A program made the position numbers and the translations under genes. 64,000 bases of DNA, from assembly GCF_017357385.1 (NCBI RefSeq), contig NZ_CP071633.1, positions 744,001-808,000 on the forward strand, in the 5' to 3' direction. The notes beneath the pieces are model-generated. The model saw nothing but the letters and a program-made list of their open reading frames with translations. It searched no databases and was not told the DNA's origin. The DNA comes from Rhizobium sp. NZLR1 (GTDB lineage: Bacteria > Pseudomonadota > Alphaproteobacteria > Rhizobiales > Rhizobiaceae). Positions 9,698 through 44,341 of the stretch are shown piece after piece (within the stretch, counting starts at the first letter, position 1; the number at the start of each line of letters is the position of its first letter).

Positions 9698-9736
9698 AGC
9701 ACAAATCCCCTATTGGTCAAACAAGTTCTGAATGTG

Positions 9737-9773
9737 TCATATGAATTTTATGGAAATCGCAAAATACATATGA
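9737..9773. promoter_or_regulatory. Inverted repeat in the divergent cluster 1 promoter
   Basis: TCATATGAATTTT (9737-9749) and AAAATACATATGA (9761-9773) are inverted copies with one mismatch, separated by 11 bases. Each arm contains a CATATG core. The element is AT-rich and lies midway between the leftward permease start (9697) and the rightward gene (9828). It is a likely binding site for a dimeric or tetrameric regulator controlling both arms. No regulator gene is adjacent. Confidence 0.6.
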
Positions 9774-9827
9774 TAAGTGGGCGGGAAAGCAGACGTCCAT
9801 CAATGCTTTTCCGGTACGGGGAGAGAC

Positions 9828-11624: not shown

Positions 11625-11635
11625 GGAGGACGAGC

Positions 11636-21309: not shown

Positions 21310-21358
21310 GCTCGGTCGCATCCGCACGTTCATTGCGTCATGGAGGGAGGAGAAACCC

Positions 21359-22579: not shown

Positions 22580-22586
22580 AGCGCCC

Positions 22587-22606
22587 GCGCGTCTGAGAAG
22601 ACGCGC
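22587..22606 (+). terminator. Intercistronic hairpin with GAGA tetraloop
   Basis: GCGCGTCT (22587-22594) and AGACGCGC (22599-22606) form a perfect eight-base-pair stem capped by a GNRA-type GAGA loop, seven bases after the binding-protein stop. There is no T run, so mRNA stabilisation or partial attenuation is more likely than full termination. Confidence 0.6.
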
Positions 22607-22707
22607 CGTCGCTTTGGATCTGCGCATGATCGTTCGGACAATTGATTTCGATTTACGGGTCATGCGCCAGCTCTCGCCAGGCGAGATTGTCACGCATGGA
22701 GGAAGAC

Positions 22708-23634
22708 ATGTCGCAAAGCGCCGTCGCCGAAATTCCGCTGCAGCCCGGTCAGCCACGGCGCTTTCTGATGCCCGAGACCCAGACTGCCATGCTGTTCCTG
22801 CTGCCGAGCTTCCTCGGCTTCATGATCTTCATGGCTCTGCCGATCCTGGCGTCGCTAGCGCTGAGCTTCACCAATTGGCAGCTGATCTCGACGCCGTCCT
22901 TCGTCGGCTTTCAGAATTACATCAAGCTCTTCACCGTCGATCCGGCGTTTTACACCATCTTGCGCAATACGCTGTTCTTCGCCGTCGAATATCTGGCGCT
23001 GAACATTGCCGTCTCGCTGACGCTTGCGGTGTGGATATCGAGCCTGAAACGCGGCAAGGCGATCTTCCGGGTGATCTTCTTCCTGCCGACCTTCACGCCG
23101 ACGATCGCCGCGTCAGTAGTGTGGCTGCTGATCTTCACGCCGGATGGATTGGCCGACGCCGTCATCCGCGCGCTCGGCCTCGGCCTGCCGAATTTCCTGT
23201 TGAACCCGACCTGGGCCATGCAGGCAATCATCCTGGTCACGCTGTGGGCGAATGTCGGCTATAACGTCGTGATGTTCAACGCCGCGCTCGATCTGGTGCC
23301 GAAGCATTATCTCGAAGCGGCGACGATCGATGGCGCCAATGCCTGGCAGCAATTCTGGCGCATCCGCCTGCCTCTCATCTCGCCGACCGTCTTCTTCGCC
23401 ACCGTGATGACGGCGATCACTTCGCTGCAGGTCTTCGACGAGATCTTTGCGATGACGCGCGGCGGCCCAGGCTCGGCGACGGCCACACTCGGCTTTGCCA
23501 TTTATCAGAAAGGCTTCACCAACTTCCAGATGGGTTATGCCTCTGCTCTTGCCTGGGTGATGTTCGTCATGATCATGGCGCTCACCATTCTGCAATTCCA
23601 CATGCAGCGCAAATGGGTGCATTATGACGACTAA
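22708..23634 (+). CDS. Carbohydrate ABC transporter permease (MalF/UgpA type)
   Basis: A 308-residue inner-membrane permease with six helices (first LFLLPSFLGFMIFMALPILA) and the EAA loop HYLEAATIDGANAWQQFWRI. The ATG at 22708 is preferred over the one at 22642 because GGAGG stands in front and homology begins there. It overlaps the next permease gene by 11 bases. Confidence 0.92.
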   Translation: MSQSAVAEIPLQPGQPRRFLMPETQTAMLFLLPSFLGFMIFMALPILASLALSFTNWQLISTPSFVGFQNYIKLFTVDPAFYTILRNTLFFAVEYLALNIAVSLTLAVWISSLKRGKAIFRVIFFLPTFTPTIAASVVWLLIFTPDGLADAVIRALGLGLPNFLLNPTWAMQAIILVTLWANVGYNVVMFNAALDLVPKHYLEAATIDGANAWQQFWRIRLPLISPTVFFATVMTAITSLQVFDEIFAMTRGGPGSATATLGFAIYQKGFTNFQMGYASALAWVMFVMIMALTILQFHMQRKWVHYDD

Positions 23635-24508
23635 CCCGACCTCACGGCATCCGCATTCCGTCTCTGCGGATCGGAAGCGCATCCTGCGGCGCGTCGGCAC
23701 CTTTATGAGTTATGCGGGAATTTCGCTGGTCGCGCTGCTTTTCCTCTTCCCATTTTTCTGGATGGTGTCGAACGCGGTGCGCTCCAACGCCGAAGTGATG
23801 GCCGTGCCGGTCCACATTCTGCCCGAGGAGTATCAGTGGGGCACCTTCGTCGATGCCTTCGTTTCGCTGCCGTTCGGAACCTTCCTGTTGAATTCCATTA
23901 TTGTCGCCTGTGGGGTGACGGCGATCGTGGTCGCGGTTTCATGCCTTTCCGCCTACGCCTTCGCTCGGCTGAGGTTTCCCGGGCGGGAAGGGCTGCTGCT
24001 CACCTATCTGAGCACGCTGATGATCCCGCAGGTGATGCTGGTCATCCCGCTCTTCCTGCTGGTCAGCAAGCTCGGCTGGATCAATACCTATCACGGCATG
24101 ATCCTGCCGGTCGCCTTCTCTTCCTTCGGCACGTTTTTGCTGAGGCAGTTTATCCTCGGCATTCCCAAGGATCTCGACGAGGCGGCGATGATGGACGGCG
24201 CTTCGCGCCTGCGTATCCTGGTCACGGTGATCGTTCCGCTTGCCATGCCGGCGATCGGCCTGCTGTCGCTCTTCACCTTCATCGCGCAATGGAAGAGTTT
24301 CCTCTGGCCGCTGATCGCTACCAGCGGCGTCGAAAAAGCCACGCTGCCGCTCGGGCTCACCCTGTTCCAGACGCAGCAGGGCACTTCGTGGAATTACATC
24401 ATGGCGGGTGCGACGATTTCCATGCTGCCGGGCGTCATCCTAGCCATCGTGATGCAGAGGATAATCTACAAAGGCATCTCCGTCGGGTCCGGCTTCGGCG
24501 GACGATAA
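23624..24508 (+). CDS. Carbohydrate ABC transporter permease (MalG type)
   Basis: A 294-residue inner-membrane permease with the EAA motif DLDEAAMMDGASRLRILVTVI and C-terminal YKGISVGSGFGGR. It overlaps the preceding permease gene by 11 bases. The operon ends here without an ATPase gene, so the importer must borrow a shared MsmX/UgpC-type ATPase, for instance 5577-6686 or 37314-38420 (inference). Confidence 0.92.
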   Translation: MTTNPTSRHPHSVSADRKRILRRVGTFMSYAGISLVALLFLFPFFWMVSNAVRSNAEVMAVPVHILPEEYQWGTFVDAFVSLPFGTFLLNSIIVACGVTAIVVAVSCLSAYAFARLRFPGREGLLLTYLSTLMIPQVMLVIPLFLLVSKLGWINTYHGMILPVAFSSFGTFLLRQFILGIPKDLDEAAMMDGASRLRILVTVIVPLAMPAIGLLSLFTFIAQWKSFLWPLIATSGVEKATLPLGLTLFQTQQGTSWNYIMAGATISMLPGVILAIVMQRIIYKGISVGSGFGGR

Positions 24509-24703: not shown

Positions 24704-25633
24704 ATGAAAACGGCCACGCTTGCATCCATCGCCCTGGCGATATCGATCTCTGCCGCCAATGCCCAGACGATCGGGGTTTCGATGTCCGATCTCGACAAAT
24801 TCAGAACGGCGCTTCTAAACGGTGTCGTCGCGCATGGGCAGACGATATCCGGCCTCAAGCTCGTCACCGAGAATGCCAAGGGCGACAACGAGCTGCAGAA
24901 GAAGCAGGTTCAGAAGCTCATTGCCGACAAGGTCGACGCGATTATCCTTGCGGTCTCCGATGGCGACCTCGGGCCGCAAATGACCAAGATGGCCGCAGAT
25001 GCAGGCATTCCGCTGGTCTATATCAACAACGTCCCCTCCAACCTGCTGGACCTGCCGGACAATCAGGTGGTGGTCGCCTCCAACGAAAAGGATTCCGGAA
25101 CGCTGGAGACGAAGCAGGTCTGCTCCCTCCTTAAGGGCAAAGGCCGCGTCGTCGTGCTGATGGGCGAACCCTTCCATGCGGCCGCCCGCGCACGCACCCA
25201 GGACATTTCCGACGTCATCGCCACGCCTGACTGCAAGGGCCTTCAGATCGTCGAACGGCAGGCCGCTTACTGGTCAAGCGATTATGCCGACCAGCAGATG
25301 CAGGAATGGCTCGCGGCCGGGGTCAAATTCGATGCCGTCATCGCCAACAATGACGAAATGGCGCTCGGCGCGATCCGCGCCATGAAGAAGGCCAATATCC
25401 CGATGAAGGACGTCGTCGTCGCCGGCGTCGACGCGACCGACGACGCGCTGGCCGCGATGGTGGCCGGCGATCTCGACGTCACCATTCTCCAGAGCGCCGT
25501 CGGGCAGGGGGCGACGGCTGTCGATGCTGCCGTGAAGCTCGTCAATAAGGAAAAGGTGCCGCGCGAAAACAACGTTCCCTTCGAGCTCGTCACACCTGAG
25601 ACCATTGCCCAGTATCTGCCGAAGAGCCAGTGA
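24704..25633 (+). CDS. Ribose-type (Peripla_BP_4) substrate-binding protein, likely chemoreceptor partner
   Basis: A 309-residue periplasmic protein of the RbsB/type-1 binding family with signal peptide ([15 protein letters not shown], cleaved before QTIGVS). Features include the first strand [35 protein letters not shown] and a C-terminal [19 protein letters not shown] hinge region. No permease or ATPase gene is nearby; instead a methyl-accepting chemotaxis protein gene starts 13 bases downstream. The simplest reading is that this protein presents its ligand to that receptor, as RbsB or MglB do to Trg, though it could also serve a remote importer. The ligand is unknown. Confidence 0.88.
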
Positions 25634-25646
25634 GCATAAGAGGACT

Positions 25647-27794
25647 ATGATGTTGCATTTCTGGAATAAATTCGGCATTCGCGCACAGATCACCTCCGGC
25701 TTCGTGCCGCTGATCCTATTGATGAGCCTGCTCACGGTCAGCGCGATCTCTGGCATGAATGGGCTCGCCTCGATTTTCGCCTCCTATCGCACCACGGCAG
25801 GCCAGAGCCTCGCCATATCGGACTACAGCGACCAGCTGAACGAGATTCAGATGTCGGCTGAAGCTTTCCGCTCTACGCCGACGCAGGATGTCGTCGACCG
25901 CTTCCGTGCCGGCGTGAAGGCGTTCGACGCCGACGACCCGCGTTTTGCCGGCAACAAGGACCTGCAATCCGGCCTTGCCGCGATCCGCCAGGACATTGCT
26001 GCCTATGGCAAGGCTTTCGAACAGATCGTTTCTCTTCAGGCCCGGCGTGACGCCTTGATCTCCAAGGTCACCGAATTTGGCCCTTGGACCAGCATTGCTC
26101 TCAACGACGTCGTGCGAAGCGCCTGGCGCCAGAACGATGTGGCCCTGTTGCAAATGACGGCGGCGACGCTGGAGGCCTTGAACCGCAGTCTCTATTTCTC
26201 TGAGCGCTTCGTGCATTCCAACGATTTTGCGGCCTATGACACGGCGCAAGCTGCACTTGCCGAAGCGGTCAGCCTCAATGAAGCCGCCGCCAAGGCCGCG
26301 AAGAACGAGCTGCAGAAGAAGCGCCTGATGGGCGCCGGCCAGCTCATGCAGAACTACACCGCCCGTCTCGGCGACATGAAGGACGTCCTGCAGGCCTCGG
26401 GCAACATCCGCCAGACGCAGCTCGGCGTGCTTGCACCGAGAATATCAGGCGGTTTCAAGGACTTGCAGGCAACTGTCGCGGGGGCGCAGAAGACCCTGGA
26501 TGGTTCGGTGGACGCAACGGTTGCCTCCGCGACCAGCACGACGCTGGCCATCAGCGGATTGTTGATCGTCATCGGCCTCGTGCTTTCCTATTTCGTCGGC
26601 CGGCTGATTTCCTCGGCGGTCCGCAACATGGCCCAGGCGATGGAGCAGCTTGCCCGCGGCGAGGAAGGGATCACGATAACGGGCGTCGAGCACCGCCATG
26701 AGCTGGGCGCCATGGCGCGTTCGCTGAAGGTGTTCCAGGAGACCGGCCGCGCCAAGCTGATCGCGGAAGCCAATGCCGAACGGGCTCGCCTGGCCGCCGA
26801 AGAAGAGCGGCTCCGCCAGGAGGCCGAGCGGCTCAGCGATGCGCAGGTGATGGAACATGCCTTCCGCCAGATCTCCGTCGGCCTCGATGCGTTGTCGAAG
26901 GGTGATCTCACCGTCCGCGTCGGCGAAGTCGACCATCGCTACGTCAGGATCCGGGATCATTTCAACAACTCGGTCGCGAGCCTCGAGGAAGCCGTCGACT
27001 CCGTCATTCGCGCGGTCGCCACCATCCGGTCCGGTCTGTCGGAAATCTCCACGGCCTCCAACGATCTCGCCCGCCGCACCGAGCAGCAGGCAGCCTCCCT
27101 GGAAGAAACGGTCGCAGCACTCGGCGACGTCACCCGCGGCGTCAACGGCACGGCGGAGGGCGCAGGCCGCGCCCAGGCTGTCGTGGCGACGGCCCGCACC
27201 AATGCCGAAAAGGGCGGCGAGATCGTCGCCCGCGCCATCGACGCGATGACGGAGATCCAGAATTCGTCCTCGAAGATCGGCAACATTATCAGCGTCATCG
27301 ACGAGATCGCCTTCCAGACCAACCTGCTGGCGCTGAATGCCGGCGTCGAAGCCGCGCGCGCCGGTGAAGCAGGCAAGGGTTTTGCGGTGGTCGCCCAGGA
27401 AGTCCGCGAACTCGCCCAGCGTTCTGCCAATGCGGCAAGGGAGATCAAGCAACTGATCTCGACCTCCTCGGCGCAGGTCAAGACCGGCGTCGAGCTGGTC
27501 GGCCAATCCGGCCTCTCGCTCGAACAGATCGTCGAGCAGGTCACTGCGATGAATGCGACCGTCGCCGAGATCGCCGTTGCCGCCCGCGAACAGGCGACGA
27601 GCCTGCGCGAGGTCTCGGCCGCCGGCGACCAGATGGACAAGGTGACGCAGCAGAACGCCGCGATGGTCGAAGAAACCACGGCGGCCGCCCAGAGCCTGAC
27701 ACAGGAAACCGAAAGCCTTGCCCAGCTGCTGCTGCGGTTCAGGACGAGCAGCGGCCGGGCATCGGACCATCGCCACTACGCAATGGCATCGTGA
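25647..27794 (+). CDS. Methyl-accepting chemotaxis protein
   Basis: A 715-residue inner-membrane chemoreceptor. A first membrane helix is at about residues 12-33 ([18 protein letters not shown]), then a helical periplasmic sensor region up to about residue 295, then a second helix ([20 protein letters not shown]), HAMP segments, and the signalling domain with the near-invariant hairpin tip [20 protein letters not shown] and [18 protein letters not shown]. Glu/Gln-rich methylation helices flank the tip. A second ATG at 25650 has better spacing to AGAGG and may be the true start. It sits 13 bases behind a binding-protein gene, implying a joint sensory unit. Confidence 0.93.
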
Positions 27795-30853: not shown

Positions 30854-32140
30854 TTACTTGTTGGCAGCGAGCGCCACGTTGACCTTGTCGACGTCTGCAC
30901 TCATCGCTTTGAATGTCTCGTCGAGGGAAAGCTCGCCGACAATCAGCTGGCTCATGCGCTGGACGATGAGCTGATAGATGGCCGAAGATCCCTTGAGGCG
31001 TTCCAGGTCGCGGGCTGCCTTCGGTGCGCTGGCACGGCTTGCAAGGAAGACGGCCATGGCGTCCTTGGCGTTCTTGCTCTCGAGCTTGTACTGCGGGTCC
31101 TTGATGTCGGCGCCGGTCAGGATGACGTAGTTTTCGGCGATTTCACGCTGGACCTTTTCAGAGCCGAGGAACTCGATGAAGGAGGCTACGGCCTGCGGGT
31201 ACTTGGTGCGTTTGAAGCCGACGATCGCGGTGCCGCCCGGCATCGCATAGCAACCGGCATCGCCGCAGGGTGCGTTGATCGCCGTCCAGTCGAAGGCGTC
31301 GCCGATCTTCTTCTGGAACGGATTGACCATCCAGTTGCCGGCAACATAGGTCACGACATTGCCGTTGACGAACTCGTCACCCATGTTCTTGTACTGGGTT
31401 CCGCCGGCCGCCCCCCACATTTCCTTCGGGAAAGAGCCGTCCTTCGTCCAGTTATAGAGATCGGTGATGTAGTGCTTGGCGGCGTCGTCGGGGAAGGCGA
31501 ACTTGCCGTCCTTGACGTAGTTCGAGCCGTAGGAGAAGGCCGCGCCGGAAAAGCGGTGGCCCGAGCGGTCCATCGTGAAGGGGATCTGGGCTCCGGTCGC
31601 CTTGGCGACGCGCGCGGAAGCTTCGACGATGTCCTTCAAGGTGGCGGTCGGCTTCGGAAGCGGTTCCTTAGCCTGTTCGAAGAGCGTCTTGTTGACGAAG
31701 GGCAGGTTGAAGGTCTGCGACGCGACATAGCCGTTGATTGAGTTCGGATCGTTGACGCCCGGGAAACGAAGCGTGTTCAGGCTGTCGCCGTGCAGCTTGG
31801 CGAAACCATCCGGGTCTTTCATCAAGGGGCGCATATCGAGATAGTAGGGCGCCAGCTGCCAATCGGTGATCTTGGCGATATCCGGGCCTTCGCCGACGGC
31901 AAGCTGCACCGGCAGCTGCTTGGCGACCGCATCATAACCCGACGAGACGAAATTCACCTTGATGTCTGGATGCGCGGTCTCGAATTCCTTGCTCAGCGCT
32001 TCCATCCGCTCGACGTAAGCCTGGTCGTCGTCGGTGAAGAGAAAGGTGATCGTCTGGGTTTCGGCCATGGCCACGCTGGACCATGCAAAAGAAACGGTGG
32101 CAAGCGCCAGTGCGAAAGCCCCTGAAAGGCAGGTTTTCAT
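30854..32140 (-). CDS. Sugar ABC transporter substrate-binding protein of the pectin cluster
   Basis: A 428-residue periplasmic family 1 binding protein. Signal peptide MKTCLSGAFALALATVSFAW..AMA is cleaved before ETQTITF. Mature features include DIKVNFVSSGYDAVAKQLPV and FVNGNVVTYVAGNWMVNPF. The ATG at 32140 is preferred over 32146 because GGGAGG is then six bases away rather than adjoining. It is a single-gene unit ended by a strong terminator, divergent from the pectin-type operon whose permeases (38423, 39420) and ATPase (37314) it must serve. An ATGAAAA-N2-TTTTCAT operator abuts its ribosome site. Expected ligand: a galacturonide or rhamnogalacturonan fragment (inference). Confidence 0.92.
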   Translation of the reverse strand: MKTCLSGAFALALATVSFAWSSVAMAETQTITFLFTDDDQAYVERMEALSKEFETAHPDIKVNFVSSGYDAVAKQLPVQLAVGEGPDIAKITDWQLAPYYLDMRPLMKDPDGFAKLHGDSLNTLRFPGVNDPNSINGYVASQTFNLPFVNKTLFEQAKEPLPKPTATLKDIVEASARVAKATGAQIPFTMDRSGHRFSGAAFSYGSNYVKDGKFAFPDDAAKHYITDLYNWTKDGSFPKEMWGAAGGTQYKNMGDEFVNGNVVTYVAGNWMVNPFQKKIGDAFDWTAINAPCGDAGCYAMPGGTAIVGFKRTKYPQAVASFIEFLGSEKVQREIAENYVILTGADIKDPQYKLESKNAKDAMAVFLASRASAPKAARDLERLKGSSAIYQLIVQRMSQLIVGELSLDETFKAMSADVDKVNVALAANK

Positions 32141-32152
32141 TTTCATCCTCCC

Positions 32153-32168
32153 ATGAAAACATTTTCAT
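32153..32168. promoter_or_regulatory. Operator copy 1 of the pectin cluster
   Basis: ATGAAAACATTTTCAT: perfect seven-base arms around CA, immediately upstream of the GGGAGG of the binding-protein gene. The same arms recur at 32294-32309. Confidence 0.78.
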
Positions 32169-32293: not shown

Positions 32294-32309
32294 ATGAAAA
32301 TATTTTCAT
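32294..32309. promoter_or_regulatory. Operator copy 2 of the pectin cluster
   Basis: ATGAAAATATTTTCAT is a perfect 16-base palindrome, 22 bases ahead of the GTG start of the 840-residue protein. Same arms as the 32153-32168 site, so one regulator probably controls both divergent units. Confidence 0.78.
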
Positions 32310-32331: not shown

Positions 32332-34854
32332 GTGAAAACGGAAAGCATCAAGCAGCCGGGTGACGTGGCGCCGGCTTATAGCGTGGCCGAGGGCCAGACG
32401 ATAACGGCATGGGCCGTTTCGGGCCTCATCGCCAGCTATTTCCCCGGCGAGCCGGCGCTCGCCGAAGATCGCGTGAACTATCGCTTCATCAACGGTTTCG
32501 TCGACGTCGGCGACCTGCCGTGTCGCAAGGCCTTCTGGTCGACCATGGTGGGGCGGGCGCTCATCGCCGACACGTCCTGGCCGACCGAAAGCCTGTATCT
32601 CCCGTGCTCGAACCGCCGCGTCGAGTTTACCAGCTTCTGGCATGTGCCGACGCATATCAGGCGATGGCTGAAGGGCACGTTCAGGACGGAAGCTCCGCGC
32701 ACGCTCAATCTCGCGCTCAAGACCTGCGGCGGCGTTCGCATCTGGGTCAACGGGCAGGAGACGGTGCGCTTCGAGCCCTTCAAGCGCAACACCGAAAGCG
32801 CAACTGAAATAGCGCTGTCGCTCGATGCCGGCGACAATGAGATTCTCGTCCATACCGAAGATCTTGCCGAGCGCGACACGACCTGGTTCTTCGAGCTCGA
32901 AATGCTGGACAAGGAGCCGCTCTGCGTGCTGCTGCCGGTATCGCTTGATCAGGACGAGGTGCGCGAGCTGGAAGCGCTGTCACGCGGCGTGCGGCCGGCC
33001 CGCGACGTCTTCGTCAACCAGCCGCTGGAGATCATCTTCGACACGGCGCCCGAGCGCGACCTGCCGGTGGAACTCAAGGTCGTCGGCCATGGCCACGAGC
33101 GGCCCGTTCTCGCCCATTCGAAACTGACCCTGCGCGCCCATCAGAGCCGTCTGATCGCCGAAGATATCTGCGGCATTGCCGACGGTTATCACGGTATCCA
33201 CATGACGATCGGCTCCGGCCCGGGTTCGGTCAGCCGCGTCATCGATGCCGCGTTCATGAGCAGCATTTCGCCATTGCCGCCCGAGCCGTCGCTTGCCGCC
33301 CGCAAGCAGCAGGCGTTGGAATACAGCGCCCGCTTCGGCGCCAACCGCGCCGGGCGCCTGATCGCGATGATGGAAATCGGCCATCAAGACCAGGAAAGCT
33401 TCGACCGCATCGTCGACGCGACACTTGCCTCGATCGAGGCACGGGAGGATTGCTCTGATTTCATTATGGTGCCGCTCTTGTGGCTGCTCGGCGCCTATGG
33501 CGACCGGATGCCCGAGGCGACGGTCGAACGCATCCGCCGTTCCGTTCTCTCCTACCGTTACTGGGTCGACGAGCCGGGCAATGACGCGATGTGGTTCTGG
33601 AGCGAGAACCACGTGCTCTGCTTCCATACCAGTCAGCTGCTGGCCGGGCTTCTTCTCCCCGACGCGGTATTCTCGGCTTCGGGGCGGACGGGACGGCAGC
33701 AGGCGGAACTCGCCGTCACGCGCCTCGGGCGCTGGTTCGACAGCGTCGAGGCCCATGGCCTGGCGGAGTGGAATTCGGCCGCTTATTACCCGATCGATTT
33801 CATCGGCCTGCTCGCATTGGAACGTTGGGCCGAGAGCGAGATCGCCGATCGTTCTCGCGGGCAGATCGACCTCATCTTCCGGATGATCGCTCTTCATACT
33901 CTGGCCGGCGTTCCGGCCGGTTCGCAGGGCCGCGCTTACGACAAGGAATTGCGCGCCGGCCCGCTGACCGAGCTCGCGCCTTTCGCCCAGGTCGCCTTCG
34001 GAACTGGTTGGCTGAACAACGGTGTCGCCGCGTTGACCATGTTCTGCGCCGGCGGCTACGAGCCGCCCGCCGATCTCGCCGAGCTTGCAGCACTTTCGCG
34101 GGGCAGAAGCGTCGAGGCGCGTTACAGCCAGGGGCTTGAGAGCGGCAAACTCGTGCTGTTCAAGAACGAGGCGGCGCAGCTTTCGACGGTCATTGATCAC
34201 AAGACTGGCCAGAAGGGGCACCAGCAGCATGTTCTCGATATCAGGCTGGCCGGCCATCCGATGGCGAGACTCTGGGTCAATCATCCCGGCGAGGACGATC
34301 CCTGGGGCAATCAAAGGCCATCCTATTGGGCCGGCAACGGCATCCTGCCCCGCGTCGCCCAGCATCGCGACGTCGCCCTCCTGATCGAAGATACTTGCGA
34401 CGCACGGCATGCATGGATGCATGCCTATATCGGCCGCGATGGGCTCGACGATCTCATCATCGAAGACAAGTGGCTGATCGCGCGATCGGGCAGGGGATTT
34501 TCCGCCCTCTGGGCCTCGAACGGGTTGGAACTGATCACCGACGGCCCGACCGGCGGTCGCGAGGCGCGCTCCTATGGGCCGCTCTGCGGCTGGGCGGCCA
34601 TCGTTGGGTGCGGCAATGGCGACGCCTTCAAAGCCTTCCTCGAGCGCCTGTGCCAGACGACGGTATCCTTCGATCCCGCGCTTCGGTGCCTTGCGCTGAC
34701 GCCGCCGGGTGGCCCGGCGATCTCTCTCTCCTATGCCGACGGTCTTTCGATCGCCGGCCAGCCCCGGCCGTTCACGCATGATCAGCCGCACCCGATCCTC
34801 ACCCACGACAGTGCGGCCTCCGGCGCCGGCGCTGACAGACCGTTCTACTCCTGA
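32332..34854 (+). CDS. Large protein of unknown activity, putative carbohydrate-active enzyme
   Basis: An 840-residue protein without signal peptide, first gene of the pectin-type operon. The GTG at 32332 is taken as start because GGAGGAGG lies six bases upstream. I see three parts. The N-terminal ~320 residues are beta-rich and include a jelly-roll-like segment (VRIWVNGQETVRFEPF near 134-150) as in galactose-binding modules of glycosidases. The central ~300 residues are helical and carry striking aromatic/acidic blocks, WFWSENHVLCFHTSQLLAG near residue 421 and GLAEWNSAAYYPIDFIGL near 477, suggesting an alpha/alpha-toroid active site. The C-terminus is again beta-rich. I recognise no named family. 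Its place beside GH105 and GH28 genes points to a cytosolic lyase or hydrolase on pectin fragments (inference). Confidence 0.8.
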   Translation: MKTESIKQPGDVAPAYSVAEGQTITAWAVSGLIASYFPGEPALAEDRVNYRFINGFVDVGDLPCRKAFWSTMVGRALIADTSWPTESLYLPCSNRRVEFTSFWHVPTHIRRWLKGTFRTEAPRTLNLALKTCGGVRIWVNGQETVRFEPFKRNTESATEIALSLDAGDNEILVHTEDLAERDTTWFFELEMLDKEPLCVLLPVSLDQDEVRELEALSRGVRPARDVFVNQPLEIIFDTAPERDLPVELKVVGHGHERPVLAHSKLTLRAHQSRLIAEDICGIADGYHGIHMTIGSGPGSVSRVIDAAFMSSISPLPPEPSLAARKQQALEYSARFGANRAGRLIAMMEIGHQDQESFDRIVDATLASIEAREDCSDFIMVPLLWLLGAYGDRMPEATVERIRRSVLSYRYWVDEPGNDAMWFWSENHVLCFHTSQLLAGLLLPDAVFSASGRTGRQQAELAVTRLGRWFDSVEAHGLAEWNSAAYYPIDFIGLLALERWAESEIADRSRGQIDLIFRMIALHTLAGVPAGSQGRAYDKELRAGPLTELAPFAQVAFGTGWLNNGVAALTMFCAGGYEPPADLAELAALSRGRSVEARYSQGLESGKLVLFKNEAAQLSTVIDHKTGQKGHQQHVLDIRLAGHPMARLWVNHPGEDDPWGNQRPSYWAGNGILPRVAQHRDVALLIEDTCDARHAWMHAYIGRDGLDDLIIEDKWLIARSGRGFSALWASNGLELITDGPTGGREARSYGPLCGWAAIVGCGNGDAFKAFLERLCQTTVSFDPALRCLALTPPGGPAISLSYADGLSIAGQPRPFTHDQPHPILTHDSAASGAGADRPFYS

Positions 34855-34870: not shown

Positions 34871-35965
34871 ATGAACACTACATCTGTCGACAACGCCGCC
34901 CTCCTGACGACGATCGATCGGGTGGCGACGGCTTTCAGCCGGCTCAGAGGCATCAAGGAAGGTCTGGTGACCGGAAGCTCCACCTCCGGGATCCAGTTCG
35001 ACGAATGGGACTGGGAAGTCGGCGTCGGCCTCTACGGCTTCCTGCGGCGGGCCATATCCACCAATGACCGGAAGGCGCTGGAGGAGCTCGTCGCCTGGTA
35101 TGCCGGCCAGATCGAACGCGGTCTGCCGCCGCGCCAGATCAACAGCACGGCGCCGATGCTGCCGCTGGCGATCCTCGTCCAGCATGTCGACCGTCCGGAT
35201 TTTCGCGCGCTCGTCGAGGACTGGGCCGATTGGCTGGTCAAGGAATTGCCGAAGACCGAGGAGGGCGGCTTTCAGCACGTCGTCAAGGAGCGCCTCAACG
35301 ACGGCGAATTGTGGGACGATACGCTGTTCATGGCCTGCCTGTTTCTCGCCCGAGCCGGCGTGCTCTGCGAGCGCAACGATTGGATCGACGAGGCCGTCTA
35401 TCAGTTCGTGATCCACACCCGCTACCTCTCCGATCCGGTGAGCGGTCTCTGGTATCACGGCTGGACCTTCAACGGCCGGCACAATTTCGCCAATGCCTTC
35501 TGGGCGCGCGGCAATGCCTGGATCACCGTCGCCATTCCCGAGCTCTTCGATCTGGTTCCGACGCTTGGCGAAAAGGACCGGCGGTTCCTTTCGAACGTTC
35601 TCGTCAGCCAGGTGCGCTCGCTGAAGGAGTACCAGAGGCCGGACGGGATGTTCACGACCCTTCTGGACGACCCCTGGTCGCCGCTGGAAACCTCGGCCAC
35701 GGCTGGCATTGCCTATGGCATATTGCGCGCCGTCGATGCCGGCATTCTCGACGATAGCGATAAGGCTTATGCGGAGCGCGCGCTTGCGGCGGTGCTGGCG
35801 CAGATCGACGAAGAAGGCATCGTTCACGGCGTCTCGGACGGCACGCCGATGGGCCATGACCTCGATTTCTACCGGCGCATCCCGAACGTGCCGACGCCTT
35901 ACGGCCAGGCGCTGACCATGCTGCTGCTGACCGAAGTCATCCTCGAAAACGGTCGTCGCCAATGA
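34871..35965 (+). CDS. Glycoside hydrolase family 105, unsaturated galacturonyl/rhamnogalacturonyl hydrolase
   Basis: A 364-residue cytosolic alpha/alpha-barrel enzyme related to YteR/YesR. It removes 4,5-unsaturated galacturonic acid from the non-reducing end of pectin-lyase products by hydration. Family features are DEWDWEVGVGLYGFLRR, GGFQHVV, GELWDDTLFMACLFLARAG (containing the likely catalytic Asp) and FWARGNAW. It begins 16 bases after the 840-residue gene and overlaps the GH28 gene by four bases (ATGA). No signal peptide. Confidence 0.92.
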   Translation: MNTTSVDNAALLTTIDRVATAFSRLRGIKEGLVTGSSTSGIQFDEWDWEVGVGLYGFLRRAISTNDRKALEELVAWYAGQIERGLPPRQINSTAPMLPLAILVQHVDRPDFRALVEDWADWLVKELPKTEEGGFQHVVKERLNDGELWDDTLFMACLFLARAGVLCERNDWIDEAVYQFVIHTRYLSDPVSGLWYHGWTFNGRHNFANAFWARGNAWITVAIPELFDLVPTLGEKDRRFLSNVLVSQVRSLKEYQRPDGMFTTLLDDPWSPLETSATAGIAYGILRAVDAGILDDSDKAYAERALAAVLAQIDEEGIVHGVSDGTPMGHDLDFYRRIPNVPTPYGQALTMLLLTEVILENGRRQ

Positions 35966-37326
35966 GCGCTGTATCTCTCGTCGCGATTGAGGCGGTCGAT
36001 GGCGACAACACGGCCCGCCTTCAGGCGGCGATCGATGCTCTATCGGCTTCCGGCGGCGGACGGCTGGAACTGCTTGCAGGCATCCACATCTGCCGGGGGC
36101 TCCGCCTTCGCTCCGGTGTCGATCTTCATCTCGCCGCCGGCGCGATCCTGCGTCCCGTTCCGGATTATAGCGCCTACGCGCATACGATTGTTTCGGTGAT
36201 CGCCGAGAAGTCGGACCGTGGCATGATCGTCGCCAAGGGCGCGCAGCGGATCAGCCTGACGGGGGAAGGGCGTATCGAAGCCGGCGGCGACAGCTTCATC
36301 ATCGGAGATGACGAGACGGTGGGAACTTTCACCCCCGCCGAATTCCGTCCCCGCGTCGTCGTCTTCGAGAGCTGCGACGAGGTCGAGATCAACGCGCTGC
36401 ATATCAGCCGCTCGCCTATGTGGACGCTGCATTTTGTCGATTGCACCGATGTCAGAGTCCGGAACGTGACGATCGACAACGACCGCCGCCTTCCCAATAC
36501 GGACGGCATCGTGCTCGACGCCTGCCGCGGCGCCGTCATCGAGGACTGCACGATATCGACGGCCGATGACGGCATCTGCCTGAAGACCAGTATCGGTCCT
36601 GATGGTGTAGCGATCGGCCGATGCGAAAATATCCTTGTCCGCCGCTGCTCGGTTCAGAGCCTCAGCTGCGCGCTGAAGATCGGCACGGAAACCCATGGCG
36701 ACATCACCAATGTCGCTTTCGAGGATTGCAGTGTCTCATCATCCAACCGGGCGCTCGGCATATTTTCGCGCGACGGCGGCCGGATATCGAACGTCCGGTT
36801 TTCGCGGATCGCGGTAGAGTGCCGCGAAACGCCCGATGGGTTCTGGGGATCCGGGGAGGCGCTGACCGTTAATGTCGTCGACCGTGTCACCGAGCGCCCT
36901 GCGGGCGCCATCGGGAACCTCATCGTCGAGGACGTCAGCGGGCAGATGCAAGGGGCGATCACCGTCATTGCGGCCGCATCGGCCGGCATCCGCAACGTAT
37001 CGCTGAGACGCATCGGCCTAGAACAGCAGCCGGGGCAACTCGGCACCGCTCAATCCTACGACCTGCGCCCGACCAGTGCCGATCTTGCCCCGAAGGTCGA
37101 CGGCGGTGGCCGCGCAAATGCCTGGACGCGCGGCTCGGACGGGCGGGTGATCGGTCTTGAGAATTATCCGGACGGAATGCCGGCCATCTATGTGGCGGGG
37201 GTTGCCGGGATATTGATGAACGAGGTGCGGATCACGAGGCCGACACCGCTGCCGCAAGGCTGGAACGCAATTGACGTCGTCTTCGAAACGGCGGCACCCG
37301 ATGGGAGTGGGGCATGGCAGAACTGA
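35962..37326 (+). CDS. Glycoside hydrolase family 28 (polygalacturonase-like)
   Basis: A 454-residue right-handed beta-helix protein with the GH28 active-site set: NTDGI with D181, DDGI with D202-D203, and THGD with H245, which act as the acid/base group and supporting residues in the inverting cleavage of galacturonan or rhamnogalacturonan. The repeating short strand pattern (VRVRNVTID, AVIEDCTIS, ILVRRCSV, VAFEDCSV) fits the beta helix. There is no signal peptide, so it probably hydrolyses imported oligogalacturonides. It overlaps the GH105 gene by four bases and the ATPase gene by 13 bases. Confidence 0.92.
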   Translation: MSAVSLVAIEAVDGDNTARLQAAIDALSASGGGRLELLAGIHICRGLRLRSGVDLHLAAGAILRPVPDYSAYAHTIVSVIAEKSDRGMIVAKGAQRISLTGEGRIEAGGDSFIIGDDETVGTFTPAEFRPRVVVFESCDEVEINALHISRSPMWTLHFVDCTDVRVRNVTIDNDRRLPNTDGIVLDACRGAVIEDCTISTADDGICLKTSIGPDGVAIGRCENILVRRCSVQSLSCALKIGTETHGDITNVAFEDCSVSSSNRALGIFSRDGGRISNVRFSRIAVECRETPDGFWGSGEALTVNVVDRVTERPAGAIGNLIVEDVSGQMQGAITVIAAASAGIRNVSLRRIGLEQQPGQLGTAQSYDLRPTSADLAPKVDGGGRANAWTRGSDGRVIGLENYPDGMPAIYVAGVAGILMNEVRITRPTPLPQGWNAIDVVFETAAPDGSGAWQN

Positions 37327-38420
37327 AACTTTCCAACGTCAACAAATCGTATGGCTCGGTCAAAGTCCTGCACGACGTCGAACTCGATATCAAGGACGGC
37401 GAGTTCGTTGTCTTCGTCGGTCCGTCGGGATGCGGCAAGTCGACCCTTTTGCGCGTCATCGCTGGCCTCGAAGAGGTCACGTCGGGGGCAATCGCGATCG
37501 GAGGCCGGGACGTCAGCGCACTCTCGCCGGCCGAGCGCAAGATCGCCATGGTCTTCCAGTCCTACGCGCTCTATCCGCATATGAGCGTTCGCAAGAACCT
37601 CGCTTTCGGCCTTGAAAATCTGAAGTTCAAGCGCGCCGAGATCGAGGCGCGCATTGCCGAGGCCGCCAGGATGCTGGCGATCGAACCCTATCTCGACCGG
37701 CGCCCGAAGCAACTTTCGGGCGGCCAGCGCCAACGTGTTGCCATCGGCCGGGCCATCGTGCGCGAACCGGATATTTTTCTCTTCGACGAGCCGTTGTCGA
37801 ATCTCGACGCGGCGCTGCGCGTCCAGACCCGGGCTGAGATCACCAAGCTCCACCGCGAGATCAAGACGACGATGGTCTATGTGACGCATGACCAGGTCGA
37901 GGCGATGACGATGGCCGACAAGATCGTCGTGCTGCGCGCCGGGCGGGTCGAGCAGGTCGGCGCGCCGCTGGAACTCTTCGACAACCCGCGCAATCTCTTC
38001 GTCGCCGGCTTCCTCGGCTCACCGCGCATGAACATCATCAGGGGCAGGGTCTCGGCTATCGGTGAAAGCGGTGTGGCCATCGATGTCGACAACGGCGGCA
38101 AGATCGTCAGCGATGTCGACCCTGCCGGCATCGCGGTCGGGCAGGCCGTTCTTGCCGGTATAAGGCCTGCGCATTTTTCACGCGTCGGAGAGCAAGGACT
38201 GCCATTCGTCGTCCAGTATCACGAGGGCCTCGGCACCGAGACCTATGTCTACGGCAACCTTGCCGGCCACGACGAGCAGATCATCATTCATGAGGCCGGC
38301 CATTTCGCGCCCACGCAAGGCGACCTGATCTCGATCGACGCCGCTCCGGAACGGGTTCATCTGTTCGATCCCGAAAGCGGCCTGGCCTTTGGCCGGCGGC
38401 CCGGACAGGGGAGACGCTGA
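37314..38420 (+). CDS. ABC transporter ATP-binding protein, UgpC/MalK type
   Basis: A 368-residue ATPase with Walker A GPSGCGKST, signature LSGGQRQRVAIGRAIVREP, Walker B IFLFDEPLSNLD and THDQVEAMTMAD, followed by the TOBE regulatory domain (LAGIRPAHFSRVGEQG). Its 5' end overlaps the GH28 gene by 13 bases, showing tight coupling. It drives the cluster 3 importer and is a paralogue of 5577-6686. Confidence 0.95.
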   Translation: MAELKLSNVNKSYGSVKVLHDVELDIKDGEFVVFVGPSGCGKSTLLRVIAGLEEVTSGAIAIGGRDVSALSPAERKIAMVFQSYALYPHMSVRKNLAFGLENLKFKRAEIEARIAEAARMLAIEPYLDRRPKQLSGGQRQRVAIGRAIVREPDIFLFDEPLSNLDAALRVQTRAEITKLHREIKTTMVYVTHDQVEAMTMADKIVVLRAGRVEQVGAPLELFDNPRNLFVAGFLGSPRMNIIRGRVSAIGESGVAIDVDNGGKIVSDVDPAGIAVGQAVLAGIRPAHFSRVGEQGLPFVVQYHEGLGTETYVYGNLAGHDEQIIIHEAGHFAPTQGDLISIDAAPERVHLFDPESGLAFGRRPGQGRR

Positions 38421-38422: not shown

Positions 38423-39418
38423 ATGGCGGCGCTCAAAGCAGGTGCATTGCTGTCGCAGACAGGAGAAACGGCAATGAGGGTGGTCGAAGCCCCGATTAAT
38501 GTGATTGAACGCATCTTCGGCCGCAAGCGCATGCCATGGCTGTTCCTGGCGCCGAACCTCGTTCTGTTCGCGATCTTCACGTTCCTTCCGATCGCGATTG
38601 CAGTGGGTTACGCCTTCACCGGCGGCACCAATCTTTTCGTGTCGGAGCGGCCCTTCGTCGGCCTGGACAATTTCCGGACGCTGCTTTCCTGCGGCAATTA
38701 CCTGCAGCCGGGAACCTGCCAGGAATCGCTGTTCTGGACGGCGGTGTGGAATACGCTCTGGTTCGTGTCGTTCAACGTCGTCGCCACATTGCTGGTGGCG
38801 CTGATCACCGCGCTGATCCTCAACCGGGCGATTTTTGCGCGCGGCTTCTTCAGGGCGATGTTCTTCTATCCCGTCTTGCTGTCGCCCGTCGTCATCGGCC
38901 TGATCTGGAAATGGTTCCTCGATCGCAACGGGCTGCTGAACGCCTTCTTTCAGATGATCGGCGTTCCCCCGGAGATTTTCCTGCTGGATGTCGGCTGGTC
39001 GCGTTTCTTCGTCGTCGTGGTGTCGGTCTGGTTCCATATGGGCTTTTACACGCTCATCCTGCTCGCCGGCCTCCAGGCGATCCCGAAGGAACTCTACGAA
39101 GCAGCCTCCATCGACGCCGCTTCGCCGCGCCGCACGCTTTTCAGGATCACGCTTCCGCTGTTGGCCCCGAACCTGCTGGTCGTCTTCATCCTTCTGATGA
39201 TCAAATCCGTGCAAATCTTCGATGAGGCGTGGGTTCTGACCAACGGCGGTGGCGCGGGCACGGCCAACAGCTTCATCGTCCAATACATCTACCAGATGGC
39301 GTTCAGCAGCGACCTTCGCCTCTTCGGACTTGCGTCGGCCGCATCGGTTCTCATGGGACTGGTGCTTCTGGTTCTCACCCTCATACAGCTGCGCCTCGGC
39401 AAGCGAATGGAGTCCTGA
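38423..39418 (+). CDS. Carbohydrate ABC transporter permease (MalF/UgpA type)
   Basis: A 331-residue inner-membrane permease with helices starting at WLFLAPNLVLFAIFTFLPI and the EAA loop ELYEAASIDAASPRRTLFRI. Starts at 38423 (GGAG nine bases upstream) or 38474 (MRVVEAP, AGGAGAAA upstream); the longer form is given. The loop near residues 80-105 contains two cysteines (SCGNYLQPGTCQES), which could form a periplasmic disulfide. It follows the ATPase gene directly. Confidence 0.9.
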   Translation: MAALKAGALLSQTGETAMRVVEAPINVIERIFGRKRMPWLFLAPNLVLFAIFTFLPIAIAVGYAFTGGTNLFVSERPFVGLDNFRTLLSCGNYLQPGTCQESLFWTAVWNTLWFVSFNVVATLLVALITALILNRAIFARGFFRAMFFYPVLLSPVVIGLIWKWFLDRNGLLNAFFQMIGVPPEIFLLDVGWSRFFVVVVSVWFHMGFYTLILLAGLQAIPKELYEAASIDAASPRRTLFRITLPLLAPNLLVVFILLMIKSVQIFDEAWVLTNGGGAGTANSFIVQYIYQMAFSSDLRLFGLASAASVLMGLVLLVLTLIQLRLGKRMES

Positions 39419-39419: not shown

Positions 39420-40478
39420 ATGACCAGCTCTATGAACCCGATCAGCTTCATGACGCGCACGCGCCGGGCCGGACGCATAGACATCACCGATATTCTGTCA
39501 TGGGTCTGGCTGATCGGTGGAACGCTGGCGGTGCTCGTTCCCGTCGTCTGGGCGGGCCTCTCTTCGCTGAAGCCGGCGGCCGAGATCACCCGTTTTCCGC
39601 CGACGTTGCTTCCGCGCGCCGCCGTGGAGCAGACGGTGCCCGGCTTCGACAAGCCGCTCAGTCTCTGGCAGGTCACTATCGACGGTCAGCAGCGCGAAAT
39701 GGCCATGGTGCGGCGCATCGGCCTCAAGGCGCAAGTGGTCGATCCGGCAAATCCGGGACCACCGGTCAGCGTCGACGTGAAGGGGATGACGCCGGTGCAG
39801 CATCTGACTATTGCCACCGAGAACTACACCGATCCGCTGACGCGCTTCAACTTCCTGACCTTCCTCAAGAATTCGGTGTTCGTCACGGTGGTTGCGACGC
39901 TGCTGACCCTCGTCGTCAATGCGATGGCGGCTTTTGCGCTGTCGAAATACAAATTTCGTGGCGACACAACTGTTTTCGTCATCATCATTTCAACCTTGAT
40001 GATCCCGCTCGCCGTCGTCATGGTTCCGGCCTATCTCGTCATCGTCGGGGTCGGGCTTGCCGACAACCTCTGGGGTGTCATCCTGCCGACAGTCGCCTCT
40101 CCGACGGCCGTCTTCCTGCTGCGGCAATATATGCTGACCATACCCGATGAGCTGATCGAGGCGGCGCGCGTCGACGCGGCGAGCGAATTCTGCATTTTCT
40201 GGAGCATCATCCTGCCGCTGACGGCGCCGGCGCTGGCAGTGCTGGCGATCTTTTCGGTGCTCTGGCGCTGGAACGATTTCCTCTGGCCGCTCATCGTCCT
40301 CAACAGCCGCGAGAATTTCACGCTGCAGGTCGGTCTCAACGCATTTCAGGGAGAGTTCTCGGTGCAGTGGCACTATATCCTGGCGATGACCTTCCTCAGT
40401 CTGCTGCCTGTCACTATCGTGTTCCTGTTCCTGCAGAAATACATCACCACCGGCATCGCCGGAACAGGGATGAAGTGA
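39420..40478 (+). CDS. Carbohydrate ABC transporter permease (MalG type) with enlarged periplasmic loop
   Basis: A 352-residue permease, longer than the usual 275-295. Helix 1 is VWLIGGTLAVLVPVVWAGLS; the next hydrophobic segment (FLTFLKNSVFVTVVATLL) comes only after about 90 residues that include VPGFDKPLSLWQVTIDGQQ and MAMVRRIGLKAQVVD, a beta-like insert. The EAA loop is ELIEAARVDAASEFCIFWSI and the end is TGIAGTGMK. Starts at 39420, two bases after the previous stop. The insert may form a docking or substrate-gating element. Confidence 0.92.
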   Translation: MTSSMNPISFMTRTRRAGRIDITDILSWVWLIGGTLAVLVPVVWAGLSSLKPAAEITRFPPTLLPRAAVEQTVPGFDKPLSLWQVTIDGQQREMAMVRRIGLKAQVVDPANPGPPVSVDVKGMTPVQHLTIATENYTDPLTRFNFLTFLKNSVFVTVVATLLTLVVNAMAAFALSKYKFRGDTTVFVIIISTLMIPLAVVMVPAYLVIVGVGLADNLWGVILPTVASPTAVFLLRQYMLTIPDELIEAARVDAASEFCIFWSIILPLTAPALAVLAIFSVLWRWNDFLWPLIVLNSRENFTLQVGLNAFQGEFSVQWHYILAMTFLSLLPVTIVFLFLQKYITTGIAGTGMK

Positions 40479-42060: not shown

Positions 42061-43089
42061 ATGATTTCCTCGCGATACGAGAATACGGCGCGCGCTCCTG
42101 AGCGCGAGAATTATGGGTTCGCACCGATGCATCAAGGCCGCGACTTCGAGTCGATGGTTCAAACACTGTCGGCGGGTTATGGGGTTTTCGCCGCACAGCC
42201 GCTAGGCAACGATCGAATCTTCCCCTGGGCGGCAGACTTGAGAAGAGGCAATGGATTTACGGTTCTTCACTCCGTCTTTCAAAGTTCTTGGACAGTTCGA
42301 ACGCTCAATGAGACGCCGCAACACCTTGCCTTCTACCTTCCGCATACCGGATCTTTTCGGGTGTCCATTGGAAAAAGGTCGGTTGAAAGTGGAGCGGGTC
42401 ACCTTCTCATGGCCAATAATCATGAGGCCGATGATCGTTTCGTCCAAGGTCCGCACACTTCGGATGTACTCTTCCTCGACTGGGGAGTCGTGAAGCGAAT
42501 GCTCGTTTCACTTATGGAAACACCGCTCTCCGAGTCGCTCGACCTTGAGCCCGTTCTGGATCTTGCGACACAGTCGGGCCAGCTTATCGGCAATTTGGTA
42601 CAGACAATCGTCCAGGGTATGCGCAACGGCGGTCCGCTTTTGTCCTCCCCTCTCGCCATGGCGACGATGAGCGAGACCCTCGCTCACCTCGTGATCCGAT
42701 TTGGCCACCACCGCCTTTCAGGTCAAATGGAAAAAAAGAAAATATCGCTGGTTGCGCCTTGGCATGTCCGACGGGCCATCGACTATATGCATGCCAAGAT
42801 CGCCGAGCCTCTCACCATGGCGATGGTTGCGGATAATGTCGGCGTTTCACTTCGCGCGCTGCAGACGGGATTCAAAGCTTTCAGGGGGACTTCTCCGGCC
42901 TGTTATCTGCGCTCCATCCGGCTGCAGGCAGCCCGCGAACAACTGCGGGATCCAACAAACCAACGATCCGTCCGCGAGATCTGCGCGATATGGGGTTTTG
43001 CGCATGCGGGCAGGTTTTCCATCATCTACCGCGGCACCTTTGGCGAGAGCCCGCGGGATACGCGACTGCGGGCAGAGCGTTTGCGTTAA
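42061..43089 (+). CDS. AraC-family transcriptional regulator
   Basis: A 342-residue regulator. The C-terminal double helix-turn-helix (HVRRAIDYMHAKIAEPLTMA, VADNVGVSLRALQTGFKAF, REICAIWGFAHAGRFSIIYR) is typical AraC; the N-terminal ~200 residues match the AraC-binding-2 (XylS/FeaR-like) type with YLPHTGSFRVSIGKR. The ATG has AGAGGA upstream with long spacing. Its stop codon overlaps the convergent LacI gene stop by four bases. The target is unknown. Confidence 0.9.
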   Translation: MISSRYENTARAPERENYGFAPMHQGRDFESMVQTLSAGYGVFAAQPLGNDRIFPWAADLRRGNGFTVLHSVFQSSWTVRTLNETPQHLAFYLPHTGSFRVSIGKRSVESGAGHLLMANNHEADDRFVQGPHTSDVLFLDWGVVKRMLVSLMETPLSESLDLEPVLDLATQSGQLIGNLVQTIVQGMRNGGPLLSSPLAMATMSETLAHLVIRFGHHRLSGQMEKKKISLVAPWHVRRAIDYMHAKIAEPLTMAMVADNVGVSLRALQTGFKAFRGTSPACYLRSIRLQAAREQLRDPTNQRSVREICAIWGFAHAGRFSIIYRGTFGESPRDTRLRAERLR

Positions 43090-44165
43090 TTCAAGCCTTT
43101 GGGATTCTGAGGCCTTCCGACAGGTTCTTGACGCGGCGGCGCGACGCTGCGGCGCAGGACGAGATGGCATCCGAGTTCCAGGCGATGGGCCGGGCGCTGC
43201 GGGTCGTTGGCGATCAGCCTTTGTTCGATGAGTGCCAGTGCGGCGGCGCCGAGCTTGTCGGTAGGAACGCTGACCGTTGAAAGCGGCGGACGGCTGAATT
43301 CGCCGGGGACGATATCGTCGAAGCCCAGCACAGAGATCGCTTCCGGCACGCCTATGTCGCGATCGGCCAATGCCTTCAGGCAGCCGAGCGCCAGATTGTC
43401 GGCCGCGCAGAAGACGGCGGTCGCCCCTTTCAGCGTAGGATCGCGGTCGAGCAACGCATTGATGGCAGCCTCGCCGTGTCTCGGCTCATATCCCTCGGCC
43501 TCCAGAATCATATCGTCCGGCACGGGAAGCTGGGCGGCGAAATAGGCATCGGAAAAGCCGTCATATCTCCGCTGGATCGTCGTGCGGCCCTTCCAGGTCA
43601 GGTGCAGGATGCGGCGATGCCCGAGCGCCAGCAAGTGCGCGATGCCGAGCCTTGCTCCGAAGCGGTTTTCGGGTGTCACCGTATCGACCAGCATAGCGGG
43701 ATCCTCGCCGTTGACGATGACGACCGGCATGTCAGGGGAGGCGAGGCTGCGGATGAGTTCCGGCTGATCGTCGTTCAGGACCACGATGCCGTCGGCACGC
43801 TCCGAAAGCGCGATCTGCCTGACATGAGCGCCGTCGATGCGCCGTCCGGTGCTGACGAAGGGTACGATCCGGATGCCGCGACGCTCGCACTCCCTTCGAA
43901 GACCGTTGAGGATCGTCCAGCTCACTAGGTTAAGGTCGCTCTCCGGCGCGGCATCATCGGGAATGGCGAGAAGCAGAACGCGCAGCGCCGCAATCGTCGC
44001 CTTCTTTCGCCGGCGGTCGAGGTAACCCAAGCGTTTGGCCGAATCCAGAACCCGTTCGCGCACTTCTATCGTCAGCGGCGCGGTTCCGTTCAGAGCGTGC
44101 GAGGCCGTGCTCAGCGATACATCAGCGTCGCGCGCGACATCCTTGAGATTGACTTTGCGTTCCAC
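43086..44165 (-). CDS. LacI-family transcriptional regulator
   Basis: A 359-residue repressor with N-terminal VNLKDVARDADVSLSTASHAL, hinge LDSAKRLGYLDRRRKK and a periplasmic-binding-type effector domain (LRREC.RRGIRIVPFVS, LALGHRRILHLTWKGR, AVFCAADNLALGCLKAL). No ATG is available; GTG 44165 is chosen because HTH homology begins two codons later and GGA lies upstream, with a TTG at 44207 as alternative. It could recognise the ATGAAAA-N2-TTTTCAT operators of the pectin cluster, but most LacI sites have a CG centre, so the assignment is open. Confidence 0.88.
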   Translation of the reverse strand: MERKVNLKDVARDADVSLSTASHALNGTAPLTIEVRERVLDSAKRLGYLDRRRKKATIAALRVLLLAIPDDAAPESDLNLVSWTILNGLRRECERRGIRIVPFVSTGRRIDGAHVRQIALSERADGIVVLNDDQPELIRSLASPDMPVVIVNGEDPAMLVDTVTPENRFGARLGIAHLLALGHRRILHLTWKGRTTIQRRYDGFSDAYFAAQLPVPDDMILEAEGYEPRHGEAAINALLDRDPTLKGATAVFCAADNLALGCLKALADRDIGVPEAISVLGFDDIVPGEFSRPPLSTVSVPTDKLGAAALALIEQRLIANDPQRPAHRLELGCHLVLRRSVAPPRQEPVGRPQNPKGLN

Positions 44166-44341
44166 TTTATTCCGTCGCGAATTGAGGTCGTGCCTTCGAA
44201 GGCACAAGCTAACTCGATGTTTTCACATAAAAACTTCAGAAAATCTACGTGCGCTGCAGCCTATTTTTCCTCTTTCGGCGAAAACCGGCCGCAGCGCTGC
44301 CGCAAATGAGCGATGATCGCGGGCGCTGGAACCATTGGCGA

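Follow-up and report, generated by a model that had tools for sequence, protein, structure and literature searches.

Predicted uronate lyase-like family DUFX encoded next to GH105 in a pectin operon of Rhizobium sp. NZLR1

RESULTS

Sequence and family of DUFX

The 64,000-nucleotide stretch of Rhizobium sp. NZLR1 DNA analyzed in this study (contig NZ_CP071633.1, positions 744,001 to 808,000; hereafter, the window) carries a pectin operon whose first gene, at 32332 to 34854 on the forward strand, encodes an 840-residue protein that is given the working name DUFX here. The open reading frame (ORF), the search for relatives, structure models, and fold matches together point to a predicted cytosolic uronate β-eliminase that would make the Δ4,5-unsaturated ends for the GH105 enzyme encoded next to it. 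DUFX is most likely an oligosaccharide lyase, a reading that we place just on the probable side.

The ORF starts with GTG. An in-frame TTG at 32314 offers an alternative start that would give 846 residues, but the 11 closest relatives listed have 840 or 841 residues, in agreement with the length given in an earlier interpretation of the DNA letters alone (the sequence-only reading). That reading had also claimed that there is no signal peptide, and a crude hydropathy scan, used in place of SignalP, agrees: the best 12-residue value of DUFX was 1.58, compared with 2.07 for the solute-binding protein encoded beside the operon, and 1 of 232 relatives had an N-terminal value above 1.8. In the same scan, the GH105 partner lacks a leader of the binding-protein type, and the start of the GH28 enzyme comes near it (1.93 versus 2.07). 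The lack of such a leader in both DUFX and GH105 suggests that DUFX would act in the cytosol on imported oligosaccharides.

On sequence grounds, DUFX represents a conserved bacterial family that is so far unnamed. Among 7999 candidates scored, 552 relatives were found at an E value of ≤1e-3, and with the in-genome paralogue as the query, 752 of 8000 candidates matched. Nearly all of the 120 relatives listed are named hypothetical or uncharacterized, and a few are named heparinase II/III-like, six-hairpin glycosidase, or PA14; the closest ones listed are from Rhizobium. The spread is patchy (with the NZLR1 genome counted, 13 of 61 relatives, 9 of 398 genomes in the phylum, and 19 of 297 in the order), and the family falls into clade 1, which contains the window DUFX and has locus L119 as an outlier, and clade 2, which is approximately 30% identical and contains the paralogue (G000:C1:2225374). 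No NCBIfam model matched DUFX at E ≤ 1, Pfam gave a subthreshold galactose-binding match alone (residues 112 to 149, E = 0.1), and a sequence search of the PDB returned nothing at E ≤ 10, so that the family is unrecognized, as had been claimed. Profile matches in PDB entries 6qe7 (E = 0.0022) and 9rhi (E = 0.023) were set aside as concerning the N-terminal part or as chance-like. None of 29 family members matched the heparinase II/III models PF07940 and PF16889 at E ≤ 1. Two weak tests against heparinase II/III proteins by hhalign gave E values of 0.4 for a roughly chosen set and 0.37 for one template sequence; the latter alignment, which is not significant, places the GHQQ motif over a GHNH motif. 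PL26 was not recognized among the 50 rows listed for Foldseek and VIA-align, nor was there a Pfam match to it in the 29 members. No description of the family was found in the sequence libraries and literature searched, with CAZy outside the search, and no paper was found with Atu4561 or Atu4562, both of which are possible neighbors of Atu4560.

Predicted structure

The AlphaFold model of DUFX is confident (predicted template-modeling score of 0.91) and takes the shape of an N-terminal β region followed by a C-terminal half resembling uronate lyases, which bears out the β front, helical center, and β tail described in the sequence-only reading. The N-terminal β region (residues 1 to 310; 32332 to 33261, forward strand) was delimited by the models and Foldseek, with weak Pfam matches to PA14 or BetaGal_gal-bd in some members; residues approximately 19 to 195 resemble GH2-type jelly-roll and PA14 carbohydrate-binding domains. 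An (α/α) toroid (residues 318 to 586; 33283 to 34089, forward strand) is present in two structure models, and it is followed by a C-terminal antiparallel β-sandwich (residues 593 to 826; 34108 to 34809, forward strand). This predicted succession of two domains is that of the PL8/12/15/17/21/33/35/39 fold group.

Foldseek with the full model listed partial N-terminal matches and one TEP1s match (TM-scores of 0.09 to 0.16), and a domain model was therefore made. When the C-terminal half alone was compared with the PDB, all 19 matches at E ≤ 0.001 were toroid-plus-sandwich lyases (PL8, PL15, PL17, PL35, and PL39); i.e., every solved protein within this threshold is a lyase. GH127 and GH146 followed weakly (E = 2.2e-3 to 3.6e-3). 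Among the 50 VIA-align rows listed, the toroid and the C-terminal sandwich jointly match lyases and one epimerase only, and several glycosidases and GH154-type structures match the toroid. The comparison with α/α-toroid lyases that had been proposed on the basis of the sequence thus places the C-terminal half with the toroid-plus-sandwich uronate lyases.

The best matches in both Foldseek and VIA-align are PL35 glycosaminoglycan/chondroitin lyases (8khw, 8khv, and 9o3q), which are ≤9% identical to DUFX and differ from it in their glycosaminoglycan substrates and their catalytic sheet histidine. The PL15 exo-alginate lyase Atu3025 (3afl and 3a0o), an exotype enzyme from Agrobacterium, and the PL17 lyase Alg17c have the same toroid plus β-sandwich fold as predicted for DUFX, although the identity is approximately 10%, their substrate is alginate, and DUFX has its own N-terminal β region. 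The two-domain fold is also common to the PL8 chondroitin AC/hyaluronate lyases (2wda, 1rw9, and 1ojn).

Conserved residues

The two motifs noted in the sequence-only reading are present at residues 421 to 439 and 476 to 490 and hold Asn426, His427, and Tyr485, which are invariant in all 67 aligned relatives. Together with Arg534, which is likewise invariant in 67 of 67 rows, these are candidate catalytic residues located in the toroid (Asn426, 33607 to 33609; His427, 33610 to 33612; Tyr485, 33784 to 33786; Arg534, 33931 to 33933; all on the forward strand). Asn426 and His427 stand in the context S-E-N-H, and the spacing from Asn426 to Tyr485 is 59 in every row. According to two reports, an asparagine (or histidine) neutralizer in the fold group is followed 53 to 63 residues on by a tyrosine and, in many of the families, after another 130 to 166 residues by a histidine of the sheet (PMC12088678, PMC11848413). 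Examples given there are N192/Y246/H401 in PL35, N201/Y258/H413 in PL17, H311/Y365/H531 in PL15, H202/Y257/H406 in PL21, and N183/Y242 in PL8 (1RWA) (PMC12088678), and N238/Y291/H444 in PL33 (PMC11848413). The Asn/His-to-Tyr spacing of DUFX (58 to 59) lies within this range, a likeness of sequence spacing rather than of superposed residues; it compares with 54 in PL35 and 54 to 57 in PL15 and PL17 and equals the 59 of PL8 1RWA.

The sheet histidine is ambiguous. The motif G-H-Q-Q-H (residues 629 to 633; 145 to 148 after Tyr485) occurs in 41 of 41 clade-1 rows and is replaced by G-Y-Q-E-T in 25 of the 26 others; His630 and His633 are limited to clade 1 and the outlier L119, and Gln631 is found in 67 of 67 rows across all clades. 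The sheet histidines of PL15 and PL17 (H531 and H413) have no invariant counterpart at this motif. His651, also in the C-terminal sandwich, is conserved in all clades and present in 66 of 67 rows, 166 residues after Tyr485 (166 to 173 in the 65 rows with an NHPGE motif). The PL8 catalytic histidine nine residues before the tyrosine (H233 in 1RWA) likewise has no invariant counterpart, since His475 occurs in only 32 of 67 rows. In view of this ambiguity the catalytic base is uncertain, and His427, Tyr485, and His651 are the candidates from sequence conservation; Asn426 and His427 would hold the carboxylate, and Tyr485 would serve as the acid or as acid/base.

Genomic company

Synteny was counted in the 80 best-scoring of 198 confirmed loci, which are mostly from Rhizobiaceae and are not independent events; counts over 84 loci add L101 to L104. 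Neighborhoods at the order level take in 18 of 25 places, with 5 more at approximately 20 kb and 2 left out. L094 and L171 look like one genome, as do some contig-assembly and G-numbered loci, and L121, L164, and L168 end at contig ends, where a missing neighbor is not proof of absence. In 77 of the 80 loci, GH105 starts within 150 nucleotides of the end of DUFX on the same strand, the three exceptions being one contig end and two Chelativorans loci, and GH28 is present in 74. In two contig-assembly proteins, P0110 and P0111, DUFX (50 to 51%) and GH105 (63 to 64%) form a single chain. The DUFX and GH105 trees match each other over the 35 of 44 loci left after 9 without GH105 in the stretch were dropped (r = 0.974; 0 of 999 permutations), as expected for genes inherited together.

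The 16 loci of clade 2 contain GH105 in 11 cases, GH105 and KduI in the same stretch in 10, and KduD in 8, with tripartite ATP-independent periplasmic or ATP-binding cassette (ABC) importers or a major facilitator superfamily gene in some. A check of these names with NCBIfam found KduI, KduD, and GH105 in L103 and L118, KduD and GH105 in L121, and GH105 in L120. Five clade-2 loci lack both GH105 and KduI, four of them from Rhizobium, including that of NZLR1 itself. This paralogue locus (L101, contig C1) comes with a binding protein, permeases, an ATPase, and a LacI gene of its own and differs from most clade-2 loci outside the genus in having neither GH105 nor KduI nearby.

Fifteen clade-1 loci, L119 apart, have no GH28; 8 of these carry GH105, 9 a GH38 α-mannosidase, and 2 both KduI and KduD, and the substrate there may differ. 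The GH38 gene lies near DUFX in L094, L096, L100, L104, L174, L176, L177, L178, and L181, several of which also have an ABC importer of the oligopeptide type and an unnamed protein of approximately 409 residues (L096:8730-9959) close to DUFX. The GH38 neighbors suggest a mannose-containing uronate glycan as the substrate in those loci.

Known pectin lyases were surveyed in 24 of the 34 genomes that bear the family, nine near relatives of the NZLR1 genome and G390 being left out. PL1 (PF00544) was over the cutoff in 1 genome, PL22 (PF14583) in 2, PL10 (PF09492) in 1, and PL9 (PF22842) in 2, and PL11 (PF21348) in none of the 24. Strong matches were confined to G279 (PL1, PL9, and PL22), and the remaining ones were weak. 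Most of the 24 genomes, as judged from these profile matches, thus have enzymes for unsaturated uronates and none of the five lyase families searched, a gap that favors DUFX as the source of the unsaturated uronates.

Operon, regulation, and neighboring genes

The operon runs on one strand up to 40478 in the order that the sequence-only reading had laid out. DUFX is followed after a gap of 16 nucleotides by GH105 (34871 to 35965; Pfam Glyco_hydro_88), which overlaps the GH28 gene (35962 to 37326; NCBIfam PglB), and then by an ABC importer ATPase identified by library scan (37314 to 38420) and two permeases recognized as ORFs conserved in synteny (38423 to 39418 and 39420 to 40478), all on the forward strand. 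The solute-binding protein of the importer, which has a hydrophobic leader in the hydropathy scan and was identified by library scan, is divergent (30854 to 32146, reverse strand). NCBIfam names the GH105 enzyme beta-galactosidase BglB, while Pfam and the closest crystal structure, 3qwt, which is named GH105, say otherwise; the BglB label may mislead, and Pfam, 3qwt, and the KduI neighbors of relatives favor an unsaturated uronyl hydrolase. The GH28 and GH105 enzymes are over the NCBIfam cutoffs of PglB and BglB, respectively, and thus resemble the Agrobacterium pglB/bglB pair (Atu4560 = PglB). PglB is reported to take part in polygalacturonate breakdown in a passage that is silent on DUFX (PMC6683767).

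A perfect 16-bp palindrome, ATGAAAATATTTTCAT, lies before DUFX at 32294 to 32309, and a palindrome with one mismatch, ATGAAAACATTTTCAT, lies before the binding-protein gene at 32153 to 32168. Both are candidate LacI-type operators, and they are the only such sites within the window. Of 78 upstream regions, 72 contain ATGAAAATATTTTCAT with ≤2 mismatches at least once and 60 contain it twice, compared with 0 of 100 shuffles that preserve base composition only; it was not found in the clade-2 loci examined. A LacI-family gene recognized by Pfam (43086 to 44207, reverse strand), of a kind present in 74 of 84 loci, encodes a candidate repressor of the operon, and a LacI-family protein would be expected to bind the palindromes.

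As had been noted, the operon contains no recognized lyase; yet a PL33-like heparinase-type lyase (9777 to 11624, forward strand; match to 8r73, E = 1.3e-89) is encoded approximately 20 kb upstream in a separate cluster. This second uronate cluster of the window (1587 to 12481) also contains a DUF2264 protein (1587 to 3437, reverse strand) related to the β-D-glucuronate dehydratase 9o4u (E = 7.9e-26), a GH88 enzyme (6702 to 7874, reverse strand), an F5/8 C-like protein, and, by the look of the ORFs, an ABC importer; its makeup is similar to the combination of lyase, GH88, and dehydratase in Bacteroides caccae PUL25. The genome as a whole has three KduI, two Glyco_hydro_88, and two Hepar_II_III_C matches. 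A third glycan uptake island, adjoining the other two, comprises an α-L-fucosidase (PF01120) and, behind it, ORFs suggestive of an ABC importer for sugars (19996 to 24508). A methyl-accepting chemotaxis protein (25647 to 27794) is encoded directly behind a sugar-binding protein (24704 to 25633), flanked by two sugar uptake clusters; the DUFX operon of R. etli IE4803 has a chemotaxis gene immediately downstream.

DISCUSSION

In the proposed mechanism, DUFX would take the C5 proton from a uronic acid of an imported pectic oligosaccharide and break the bond at C4, leaving a Δ4,5-unsaturated uronyl residue at the nonreducing end; GH105 would remove this residue, and KduI and KduD would convert it onward to 2-keto-3-deoxygluconate. 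DUFX would most likely be a lyase of the exo or oligo type with a sugar as the leaving group, e.g., at Rha-1,4-GalA. The gene, its family, the predicted fold, the invariant residues, and the gene company are direct results, and the catalysis, residue roles, substrate, location, and exo mode are inferred. The pairing and fusion with GH105, the KduI/KduD neighbors, and the near-absence of the five lyase families fit a maker of unsaturated ends. Of the two functions offered in the sequence-only reading, a lyase or a new glycosidase, the former gains from the fold, the GH105 pairing and fusion, the KduI/KduD neighbors of relatives, and the lyase gap, and the latter has become less likely.

The two-domain fold of the models speaks for a lyase, while the close coupling to GH105 speaks for either a lyase or a dehydratase. 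A dehydratase would remove water from a saturated uronate at the nonreducing end and so prime it for GH105, one uronate per cycle and with no lyase; this is rather improbable. According to two reports, GH105 and GH88 can also be served by the dehydratases BcGDH (formerly GH154) and P29_PDnc, which act on a saturated terminal uronate (PMC12269599, PMC8511951). Such enzymes would fill the same role beside GH88/GH105, and GH154-type structures have the toroid in common with DUFX. Known oligosaccharide dehydratases, however, match the toroid only and not the sandwich, none of the 29 family members matches the DUF2264 model (PF10022), which the window's own DUF2264 protein does match, and P29_PDnc is set apart by its Asp/Arg/Lys residues, compared by published residue types alone. 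Moreover, the solved proteins within the Foldseek threshold are without exception lyases, and the GH28 of the same operon could already take off saturated ends. It is conceivable, though we think it rather doubtful, that in rhizobia and other Pseudomonadota DUFX is a lyase-fold dehydratase tied to GH105, in some cases as one fused protein, and peels uronates singly from imported pectic oligosaccharides by "prime and cut" with no classical lyase needed; we know of no earlier dehydratase of this kind with a toroid-plus-sandwich fold.

DUFX might instead found a new family of glycoside hydrolases or debranching enzymes and uncover the end on which GH105 works, the unsaturated ends coming from the lyases of other organisms. 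The GH2-like N-terminal sandwich, the weak GH127/GH146 matches, the glycosidases that match the toroid, and the hydrolyzable branches hinted at by the GH38 neighbors agree with this, but the N-terminal domain alone is uninformative on catalysis and the joint match of toroid and sandwich in the VIA-align rows listed is to lyases and one epimerase, so that we hold a hydrolase to be unlikely. DUFX might also be a uronate C5 epimerase, which would abstract the same proton without cleavage; the operon gives no reason for an epimer, and the KduI/GH105 neighbors need elimination products, which makes this very improbable. Several points weigh against the lyase itself: the TM-scores to known lyases are modest, the family as a whole lacks a conserved equivalent of the sheet histidine found in known lyases, GH105 is missing in some branches, gene company alone cannot separate a dehydratase from a lyase, and other lyase families or fragments from other microbes would equally explain the unsaturated uronates.

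If DUFX is the proposed β-eliminase, it would fill a gap as the source of unsaturated uronates in genomes without the five known pectin lyase families and would add a lyase-fold family to the pectin catabolism of nodulating rhizobia and Agrobacterium, which would bear on how these bacteria feed on root cell walls.
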